Position numbers and translations under genes: made by a program
In this document: one piece after another, positions 10,019 through 28,991 of the stretch
Layout: the number at the start of each line of letters is the position of its first letter
Position numbering within the stretch: position 1 is the stretch's first letter
Origin: Rothia koreensis
Lineage (GTDB): Bacteria > Actinomycetota > Actinomycetes > Actinomycetales > Micrococcaceae
DNA length: 64,000 nt
Assembly (NCBI RefSeq): GCF_004136575.1
Contig: NZ_NOIQ01000001.1
Coordinates: 248,001 to 312,000 of the forward strand
Direction of reading: 5' to 3'
Notes under the pieces: model-generated
What the model was told of the DNA's origin: nothing
Databases searched by the model: none
The model's input: the letters and a program-made list of their open reading frames with translations, nothing else

Positions 10019-10062
10019 GTGCGGTACCGCGGGATACAGAAGTGCGGTACCGCGGGATACAG
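10019..10062. repeat. tandem 21-bp direct repeat with palindromic core
   Basis: Two identical copies (10019-10039 and 10042-10062) of a 21-bp sequence containing GCGGTACCGCGGGATACAG are separated by 2 bp, giving a 23-bp period. Each copy holds the perfect 10-bp palindrome GCGGTACCGC. The pair lies in the divergent region between icd and the Nudix gene, about 80 bp upstream of the icd -10 candidate and 83 bp before the Nudix start. Two identical sites about two helical turns apart look like a regulator binding site, though no regulator gene is adjacent. Confidence 0.75.
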
Positions 10063-25767: not shown

Positions 25768-27051
<1,284 letters not shown>

Positions 27052-27272
27052 TCCACGACGCCGTGACGCACATCCGATGATCTCGGGCCGTCGCGTGCGC
27101 ATCGGGTCGCAGAATGACCCGGTCCGCACACGGCGGCCCGCGGTGCGTTAAACGGGGATTCGTGCTGCGTCGCGCCGCGGGGCGTGAGGCCGGGGAGCGG
27201 GGCCGCGAGACCGAGGAGCGCTAGGGCACGAGCCTTGTTGGGTGGCGGTTGCCTGCGGGGTGGGGCCCTGTT

Positions 27273-27324
27273 GGGTGGCGGTTGCCCGATGGTGAGGCGT
27301 TTTCCGTCGGTAGGTGGGGGTTCA
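27273..27324 (+). repeat. lead element, copy 1
   Basis: 52 bp starting GGGTGGCGGTTGCCCGATGG and ending in TCGGTAGGTGGGGGTTCA. It is identical over its whole length to 27547-27598 and runs directly into the first 75-bp unit. Confidence 0.9.
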
Positions 27325-27457
27325 GCCCCCTCAAACGGTGGGAAATCTCCACCTCATCGGGTAACTGCCACCCAACGGCTCGCGACAGACCGGTTTTCAA
27401 CCCCCTCAAACGGTGGGGAACCGCCACCGATTCGGGTAACTGCGACCCAACGGCTCG
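27321..27457 (+). repeat. 75-bp repeat array A (two units)
   Basis: Units begin at 27321 and 27396. Unit 1 carries the hairpin GGTGG-GAAATCT-CCACC where other units carry GGTGG-GGAACCG-CCACC, so the arms match and the loop differs. The second unit stops at the tail element. Confidence 0.85.
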
Positions 27458-27540
27458 CCGAGGCGGGGTCCGCCCGCTGGAGCGCTGAGCGGATTGGCAA
27501 CCATGAACGAGTCCGTCCAGGGTCCGGCGGATGCTAGCTC
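27458..27540 (+). repeat. tail element, copy 1
   Basis: Begins CGAGGCGGGGTCCGCCCGC and ends in a 52-bp core (27489-27540) with ATGAACGAGTCCGTCC and GGATGCTAGCTC. It matches 27901-27981 with a few substitutions. It includes the last coding bases and stop of galE (GAGCTAG on the minus strand) although galE itself ends 435 bp away. Confidence 0.85.
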
Positions 27541-27546
27541 ACGCAT

Positions 27547-27598
27547 GGGTGGCGGTTGCCCGATGGTGAGGCGTTTTCCGTCGGTAGGTGGGGGTTCA
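27547..27598 (+). repeat. lead element, copy 2
   Basis: Identical to 27273-27324 over 52 bp and followed by the first unit of array B; the copies are 274 bp apart. Confidence 0.9.
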
Positions 27599-27900
27599 AC
27601 CCCCTCGAACGGTGGGGAACCGCCACCGGATCGGGTAACTGCCACCCAACGGCTCGCGGTAGCCCGGGTTTCAACCCCCTCGAACGGTGGGGAACCGCCA
27701 CCTCATCGGGTAACTGCCACCCAACCGCTCGCGGCAGACCGGGGTCCAGCCCTTCGAACGGTGGGGAAGTGCCACCGAATCGGGTAACCGCCACCCAACG
27801 GCTCGCGGCAGGTCGGGATCCGGCCCCTTCGACGGTGGGGAAGTGCCACCGATTCGGAAGACCGCCACCGAATCGGGTAACCGCCGCCGAACAGCGCCGC
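27595..27900 (+). repeat. 75-bp repeat array B (four units plus a decayed one)
   Basis: Units begin at 27595, 27670, 27744 and 27818. The fourth is followed by a decayed stretch containing a second ACCGCCACCGAATCGGGTAACCG block. Loops vary (GGAACCG, GGAAGTG) while GGTGG/CCACC arms stay. Confidence 0.85.
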
Positions 27901-27981
27901 CGAGGCGGGATCCACCCCCGGAGTGGCGAGCGGATCGGCCGCCATGAACGAGTCCGTCCGGGGTCCGGTGGATGCTAGCTC
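27901..27981 (+). repeat. tail element, copy 2, overlapping the galE 3' end
   Basis: Second copy of the tail. Its last seven bases (27975-27981) are the end of galE including its stop codon, so this copy is probably the original and the one at 27458-27540 the duplicate. Confidence 0.8.
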
Positions 27982-28991
27982 GCGTACCCGTTCGGGTTGT
28001 TCTCCTGCCAGCGCCAATGATCGGCGCACATCGTGTCGATATCGCGGGTTGCGGACCACCCGAGATCGGCCAGTGCGGAGGAGGGGTCGGCGTAGGACAC
28101 GGCGACGTCGCCGGGGCGGCGATCCACGATCTCGTACGGGATCTCCTTGCCGGACGCCTTTTCGAACGCGTCACGGACCTCAAGAACCGAGTAGCCATTG
28201 CCGGTTCCGAGGTTCCAGGTGTGCAACCCGCCCCGGTCCGAGATGGCGTCCAGGGCTTTGATGTGGCCTTCGGCCAAGTCGACAACGTGGATGTAGTCCC
28301 GCACGCCGGTCCCGTCCGGGGTCGGGTAATCGTTGCCGAAGACCTTCAGCTTGTCCCGGCGTCCCACGGCGACCTGCGCGATGAACGGCAACAGGTTGTT
28401 GGGGACGCCCGTCGGGTCCTCTCCGATTCGTCCCGAAGCGTGCGCGCCCACGGGGTTGAAGTACCGCAGGAGAGCTACGTTCCATGCATCGTCCGCGTTG
28501 GCCAGATCAATCAGCATGTCCTCGATGTGCTCCTTGGTCCGGCCGTAGCAGGACTGGGCATCCATGGGGAGCTTCTCGGTGAGTGGCATCTCTTCGGGGG
28601 CGCCGTACACGGTCGCCGACGAAGAGAACACGATCGAACGACAACCGACCGACTCCATGGCCTGAAGCAGGTTGATCGTACCCGCAACGTTCGTGTTGTA
28701 GTACCACAGCGGTTTCTCGGCCGATTCACCGACGGCCTTGAGGCCCGCGAAATGGATGACGGCCTCGGGCCGGGTCGAAGCGAAGAGCTCACGCATCGCC
28801 GCGGCGTCGAGCAGATCGACTTCGTGGAATTCGATCGCCTTGCCTCCGGCCAATTCACTGACGCGTTCCAAGGACGTACGGGACGAGTTGGCCAGGTTGT
28901 CCATGACCACGACCTCGTGCCCCGCTTCCAGCAAGGCGAGGACCGTGTGGCTGCCGATGTATCCGGCACCGCCGGTCACCATGATCTTCAT
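27975..28991 (-). CDS. galE: UDP-glucose 4-epimerase
   Basis: 338 residues, full length. It interconverts UDP-glucose and UDP-galactose using bound NAD. The NAD-binding motif is GGAGYIGSH (7-15), the catalytic SSSATVYG block lies at about 123-130 and the Tyr149-x3-Lys153 pair is in [25 protein letters not shown] and [14 protein letters not shown] are further GalE blocks. It lies 23 bp behind dapD on the same strand and may be co-transcribed. Its stop codon lies inside the tail element of the repeat array. Confidence 0.96.

Follow-up and report, generated by a model that had tools for sequence, protein, structure and literature searches.

Within the window (the whole stretch of 64,000 nucleotides analyzed here), 923 bp of DNA separate a forward-strand gene that ends at 27051 from a reverse-strand gene whose stop codon lies at 27975. 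From their sequences we take the former to be gltA, for citrate synthase, and the latter to encode a galE-type epimerase. A preliminary description of the region placed tandem repeats in this non-coding gap, and both TRF and a repeat search bear this out with a period of 74-75 bp. TRF reports 3.6 copies of a 74-bp period at 27592-27857 (score 353), and the repeat search places copies of the unit at start positions 27318, 27393, 27592, 27667, 27741 and 27815 (spacings of 75, 199, 75, 74 and 74 bp). The short stems that had been recorded in the unit exist, but they are fragments of a larger imperfect palindrome that had been overlooked. The "75-bp unit" is a single arm of this 107-bp palindrome, here called F1, together with a linker, and it is iterated outward from the palindrome as satellites. 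The features are as follows, with E values from R1, a sequence-only model built from 34 F1 copies.

25768..27051, + strand: presumed gltA, left neighbour of the gap
27237..27253, - strand: partial left-type arm (GTTGGGTGGCGGTTGCC), beginning 33 bp ahead of core 1 (inverted-repeat search, sequence)
27270..27376, no strand: F1 core palindrome 1, 107 bp (R1, E=2.8e-25)
27416..27451, + strand: right-type satellite arm, 75 bp off core 1
27452..27543, + strand: locus-specific tail copy 1, with copied galE 3' end, within a larger tandem duplication
27544..27650, no strand: F1 core palindrome 2, 107 bp (R1, E=1.5e-25)
27690..27725, + strand: right-type satellite arm, 75 bp off core 2
27764..27799, + strand: right-type satellite arm, 149 bp off core 2
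27838..27873, + strand: degenerate right-type satellite arm, 223 bp off core 2
27857..27892, + strand: final right-type arm, displaced 19 bp (TRF, arm search)
27893..27985, + strand: tail copy 2, extending into the last codons of galE
27975..28991, - strand: presumed galE-type epimerase, right neighbour of the gap

The repeat structure thus spans 27237, in the partial left arm, to 27892, at the end of the last arm. The arms of core 1 (27270-27320 and 27326-27376) are complementary at 75%, and core 2 lies inside a 187-nt repeat with 91% identity to the block that holds core 1. The larger tandem duplication (27420-27558 versus 27861-27999, 74% identity) also copied the last codons of galE, and TRF detects a period of 19 at 27845-27891, around the final right-type arm. 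Elsewhere in the window, TRF finds a direct duplication of GTGCGGTACCGCGGGATACAGAA at 10019-10062 (1.9 copies, 100% matches).

Two results argue that the gltA-galE repeats are not a product of chance: a blastn search of the 709-bp region against the window's own genome returned 71 matches (self included), and in the 264 kb sampled from the window's contig, the window included, F1 occurs at the gltA-galE locus only. A coding repeat of 25 residues was rejected, since 74- and 75-bp steps are mixed and the whole array is therefore unable to hold one reading frame. An origin from a plasmid or virus was also rejected, with no match to 27220-27985 in a plasmid collection and no exact match to one F1 pattern and one F2 pattern (see below) in a collection of viral contigs. 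When the gltA-galE gaps of ten relatives were inspected by eye, none had the F1 element, and two of them (G003 and G022) had an apparently ordinary terminator hairpin instead. The copy in the window is therefore recent, or else the element was lost in the relatives.

Two palindrome families

F1 is a 107-bp imperfect palindrome with the consensus GTTGGGTGGCGGTTACCCGATT...AATCGGGTAACCGCCACCCAAC. By eye, the consensus of the core contains about six degenerate GGTGGCGGTT-like half-sites, three per arm, facing one another and spaced roughly 19-20 bp apart. R1 gave 153 matches in the window's genome (G000), counting both strands and satellites, with the best 150 of 1379 first-look candidates scored, and at least 53 cores are present there at no fewer than 49 loci. 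The arrays between gltA and galE, which had been treated as an isolated object, are accordingly one member of a dispersed family. The preliminary description had also named an absence of copies elsewhere as an outcome that would count against it, and such copies are present, both in the same chromosome and among the other genomes searched.

Among 35 genomes of the genus, F1 is carried by four, the window's genome included, and this narrow distribution argues against a general housekeeping function. The stretches fetched from these four contained 53 (G000), 11 (G012), 9 (G022) and 1 (G003) cores. Kocuria massiliensis is apparently one of the carriers; a search of genome contigs with one exact 20-mer gave matches in this species (NZ_LT835161.1) and in one contig of a Haliea MAG, the latter taken for chance. 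With stricter filters, F1 was detected in 3 of 245 genomes sampled across the family, all three from the window's genus.

A second palindrome, F2, was found in the flanks of F1 elsewhere in G000 and has the form CGAGGTGGCA-N5-GTGCG...CGCAC-N5-TGCCACCTC. Its model, R2, with the best 150 of 2038 candidates scored in G000, gave 173 matches there (both strands), 6 in G022 and 2 in G003, and detected no F2 in the remaining 32 genomes of the genus. Under stricter filters, a single genome in a sample of 297 from across the order had F2, and the F2 search was negative at the gltA-galE locus itself. The F2 core measures 57 bp in all 45 cores in which both arms were found, the script having skipped the others. 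By eye, the motif AGGTGGC(G/A)GTT is common to the F1 and F2 consensuses. The families are often neighbours: an F2 core lies within 450 bp of 38 of the 53 F1 cores in G000; for 12 of the 53, the available sequence extended less than 450 bp in one direction. The idea that F2 sits opposite the F1 satellites was dropped, as F2 was on the same side in 12 cases and on the opposite side in 11, with 15 cores lacking satellites. The F1 family is real, and no earlier description of F1 or F2 was found among the titles and abstracts that searches of an open-licence full-text library brought up; PMC13347742, one of the papers on Kocuria and Rothia genomes among them, contains the words "palindromic repeat" once.

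Spacing, spacers and arm pairing

Core length was identical in 39 of the 43 F1 cores first aligned (of the four exceptions, one is truncated where its contig stops), and these 39 have a mean identity of only 71%. Satellites were found on one side of 44 of the 74 F1 cores, on both sides of 4 and on neither side of 26. For 52 sides, which are partly non-independent because several loci are recent duplicates of each other, the distance to the first satellite was 74 bp (29 sides), 75 bp (8), 64 bp (5) or 128 bp (2), with 38, 39, 40, 52, 61, 69, 73 and 76 bp represented once each. The 74-, 75- and 64-bp steps occur in three species. F1 satellites are oriented like the adjacent arm, and the opposite orientation appears only where several cores cluster. 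F2 has a spacing of its own, the first satellite lying at 30 bp on 43 of 64 sides, at 31 bp on 8 and at 41 bp on 8, and at 52, 65, 112, 123 and 162 bp once each; F2 half-sites in opposite orientation occur mainly between adjacent F2 cores (L023 is an exception, and there may be others). A helical ladder of satellite distances is suggestive only: the 27 minority distances have a periodicity score of 0.49 at 10.5 bp and 0.60-0.61 at 11-11.5 bp.

The DNA between these fixed points is far less constant. The 29 spacers of exact 74-bp steps have an identity of 0.325, versus 0.277 expected from composition, and the 29 satellite arms compared between loci have an identity of 0.695. On 16 single-satellite sides (restricted to first steps of 60-80 bp and to sides with sufficient sequence), the spacer matched the sequence beyond it at 0.33, with a control value of 0.27 and one exception, L017, at 0.55. 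On average, then, such spacers are not copies of the flanking sequence, which argues that the equal spacing is not simply a result of recent duplication. Neighbouring spacers in multi-satellite arrays are alike (0.54 versus 0.28 for the control, n=29); these are often copies, indicating growth by local duplication, and yet the first 74-bp step is kept across unrelated spacers.

If the palindromes acted as RNA or as cruciforms, each arm should be a better match for its partner in the same copy than for arms taken from other copies. An arm-swap test therefore compared own-arm complementarity with that of arms exchanged between copies, for 35 non-redundant F1 cores and 37 non-redundant F2 cores. 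The whole F1 core gave no excess of pairing (0.696 versus 0.693 swapped), and the outer arms showed no compensatory pairing (0.704 versus 0.714). Columns 30-44 of F1 do covary (0.688 versus 0.632, z 4.2, a value reached by 1 of 2000 swaps), and the centre (columns 45-53) is less complementary than swapped arms (0.683 versus 0.729, z -3.2). For F2, the excess was weak (0.764 versus 0.747, reached by 61 of 2000 swaps). Mean RNA folding energies of F1 are about equal for native and swapped arms (-62.0 and -60.3), and the predicted hairpins of the two copies in the window are strong, at -71 and -70 kcal/mol. Of 148 core ends, just 1 is followed by a T-rich stretch, defined as five or more T among the next 10 bases. 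An RNA family was rejected on two results, the lack of any Rfam match above gathering scores in 27000-28050 and an RNAalifold consensus for F1 that contains six pairs, none with a compensatory change, and no long hairpin. The fixed spacing, together with the lack of compensatory pairing in the outer arms, fits the docking of a protein on duplex DNA better than it fits RNA.

Genomic placement and spread

None of the 74 F1 cores lies within a called gene. The 36 gaps in G000 with both neighbours called (13 at stretch or contig edges were dropped) comprise 21 convergent, 8 tandem and 7 divergent ones, and those of the other species 9, 11 and 0, respectively; these counts are approximate because the home-made gene caller overlooks some genes. 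Only 18-19% of sampled gaps are convergent, compared with the 21 of 36 in G000 (p about 2e-7).

By our reading of the search results, 38 of 42 gene fragments near F1 loci match the 2.96-Mb contig of G003 at 66% identity or more, and L017, L022, L029 and L043 had weaker matches or none. All 38 matches fall at 150-762 or 1655-2940 kb of this contig, which has dnaA at base 664, gltA at 1013.6 kb and a dif-like site at 1475.5 kb. Some of these positions break colinearity: L034, at 794 kb of the window's contig, is placed at 415 kb, and two loci 98 kb apart on contig C39 land 12 kb apart. The window's contig itself, 802 kb long, has a dif-like site at 712 kb. Among the matches listed for it, F1 is confined to the window locus and 794 kb and F2 to 772 and 794 kb, and no F2 was found in the 264 kb of it that were searched. 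On contig C4 of G012, which has its dif-like site at 1152 kb, the 22 of 25 matches listed include no core in the interval from 336 kb up to that site, and one core 7 kb past it. G000 and G012 thus both have a zone of about 0.7-0.8 Mb, depleted in F1 and F2, that runs up to dif on one side only (p 5e-6 and 0.01, for a zone picked after the data had been seen). The density of gaps in the zone is about normal (70 versus 72 per 100 kb elsewhere). Neither genome has the depletion or enrichment centred on the terminus by which nucleoid-occlusion or macrodomain sites are recognized.

The octamer CGACGTCG is enriched about four-fold near the cores (19 of 106 flanks, against about 4.4 expected). It occurs 239 times in 464 kb of G000 (the sampled stretches plus the window), which by a rough estimate seems above the prediction from base composition; codon usage may explain this abundance. 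Given how frequent the octamer is throughout the genome, no conclusion is drawn from its presence near cores.

Several pairs of loci bear on how the elements spread. L019 and L020 are recent copies, with identical cores and an abrupt divergence at one outer core edge. L016 and L035 have an F2-F1 composite in common, and differ in linker and satellites. Gene context is shared by two or three species at five F1 loci, those at the presumed uvrA, terC and mgtE genes and two others. The uvrA locus of G000 and G022 (L027 and L128) is the sole close inter-species pair. Its genes differ at 35 of 1380 positions (2.5%), its cores at 22 of 216 (10.2%), its spacers at 34 of 294 (11.6%) and its satellites at 18 of 235 (7.7%), with the satellite spacing kept within two bases. 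The idea that the cores evolve faster than the spacers was dropped after these differences had been counted; the cores diverge about as much as the spacers, and so this pair gives no sign that the core sequence is under purifying selection. The block next to the uvrA-like gene (L027:2160-4900), with genes about 97.5% alike in G000 and G022, is better conserved between these two than the sequence around it and is possibly a recent transfer. Within it, two F1 arrays flank a short gene whose product resembles DUF559-type proteins.

The F1 flanks inspected by eye showed no evident target-site duplication, and no clean empty site was available for comparison. The RAYT transposase domain (Y1_Tnp, PF01797) is absent from all four F1 carriers; it is present in 3 of the 35 genomes of the genus, none of which carries F1. 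The first 60 residues of the nearest genes at 19 loci, read by eye, suggested no candidate binder, and one of these genes resembles an ordinary response regulator.

A proposed docking array and its alternatives

The preliminary description offered three functional options, and of these the protein-binding array is the best supported, by fixed spacings across unrelated spacers, by the fixed orientation of F1 satellites and by the lack of compensatory pairing in the outer arms. The small RNA and the 3' RNA stability element are disfavoured. With a probability of roughly 0.5, we propose from the sequence comparisons that an oligomerising DNA-binding protein would use each locus as a docking array on double-stranded DNA. 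The putative protein would bind the 107-bp core and spread outward along one face of the helix, held by the satellites, to form a large nucleoprotein complex between genes that are often convergent. The arrays may have spread in the lineage as mobile or converted units, and would then have grown locally by tandem duplication of units of about 74 bp. Candidate roles include a use for the host, which might be to organise the nucleoid, to insulate converging genes or to relieve torsion between them, or else the spread of the repeat itself. The fixed core lengths, the location of all cores outside called genes and the excess of convergent gaps in G000 also speak for a docking array. Counting against it are the 26 of 74 cores with no satellite found, the first satellites at 38-40, 61 and 69 bp, the nearest genes that suggested no candidate binder, the covariation of columns 30-44 with the poorly complementary centre and the weak pairing excess of F2, the L027/L128 cores that differ about as much as the spacers, and the restriction of F1 to 4 of 35 genomes. 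A bolder and rather unlikely extension would make F1 and F2 two grades of one new chromosome-organising system, in which a lineage-specific oligomer might read AGGTGGC(G/A)GTT half-sites, nucleate on a palindrome of fixed length, spread over satellites on a helical ladder (30, 41, 52, 64 and 74 bp) and so mark tens of mainly convergent gaps throughout the chromosome save one half-replichore.

The main rival to the docking array is a selfish element: a mobile palindrome resembling a MITE or REPIN, itself non-autonomous, which would bind through its arms a transposase encoded elsewhere and would have no host function. This is a possible reading, if a doubtful one, and much of the evidence would agree with it: the patchy spread over four species, the sharp edge at which the identical cores of L019 and L020 diverge, the composite shared without its satellites by L016 and L035, and the terminator-like hairpin in place of the element between gltA and galE in G003 and G022. 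A mobile unit alone leaves unexplained the satellites that lie outside the core edge at fixed spacing, and neither a target-site duplication (by eye) nor, in the four carriers, a PF01797 RAYT was found.

Those same satellites are hard to account for at the RNA level, where the element would be a terminator, a 3' stability hairpin or a small RNA, a reading that we regard as very unlikely. Its strong predicted hairpins in the window, the covariation of columns 30-44 and the location mostly between convergent or tandem genes would fit, yet the whole core and the outer arms do not covary, the six pairs of the consensus fold include no compensatory change, T-rich stretches and Rfam matches are as good as lacking (1 of 148 core ends; none above gathering scores in 27000-28050), and 7 of the 36 gaps in G000 are divergent. 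An inert repeat, shaped merely by local duplication and gene conversion, is similarly improbable. Alike neighbouring spacers in multi-satellite arrays, the larger local duplications and the L027/L128 cores that diverge about like spacers are what it would produce; the same spacing at loci with unrelated spacers in three species, and a fixed spacing in two different families, argue against it.

The usual interpretation of dispersed palindromes in bacteria is that they are RNA hairpins or dead transposon ends. In F1 and F2, two families that are often side by side, spacing is held almost to the base pair while the intervening DNA varies, which suggests that the duplex DNA is under a geometric constraint. 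The protein envisaged for the docking arrays could prove to be a new nucleoid or transposition protein in the Micrococcaceae.

Comparison with known systems

The preliminary description was right that the locus is not a CRISPR, has no transposase and lies outside genes. Arms of about 36 bp and spacers of 38 bp do add up to a CRISPR-like period of 74 bp. Unlike the near-identical repeats of a CRISPR, F1 arms are degenerate (0.695 between loci), face away from a palindrome and recur at 49 dispersed loci, and neighbouring spacers within one array are often similar; a CRISPR was rejected on the degeneracy and dispersal of the arms. Like bacterial MITEs, F1 is short, palindromic, present in many copies and without an open reading frame of its own, and the entire element is an inverted repeat, as the ends of a MITE are. 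It differs from them in its satellites beyond the ends. By eye, its flanks gave no hint of a target-site duplication, and it is not known to have a partner transposase. Noc, SlmA, MatP and ParB each have tens of palindromic chromosomal sites, of about 10-25 bp, with a depleted zone. F1 likewise comprises tens of palindromic sites on one chromosome and has a depleted zone, but it forms long arrays, is patchy between species and has a zone that is one-sided at dif.

REP, BIME and REPIN sequences, as far as they are treated in the parts of Di Nocera 2013 (PMC3733652) consulted, resemble F1 and F2 in being dispersed, intergenic palindromes, often in convergent or tandem gaps, that form mosaics and are restricted to lineages. 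The placement of REPs and BIMEs near the 3' ends of genes is matched by F1, with no core in genes and most gaps in G000 convergent. The REP units of the GTAG and CGTC superfamilies are given there as 20-40 bp, compared with the nearly invariant 107 bp of F1 and 57 bp of F2. By eye, no unpaired GTAG or CGTC tag was recognised at an end of either consensus. Genomes with GTAG-superfamily REPs encode a RAYT, in contrast to the four carriers of F1, and a REP/RAYT system was rejected because PF01797 is missing from all four. F1 and F2 thus resemble REP/BIME mosaics yet depart from them in defining traits, and half-arm satellites at a fixed pitch, absent from the REP description in those parts of PMC3733652, are a feature of F1 and F2.
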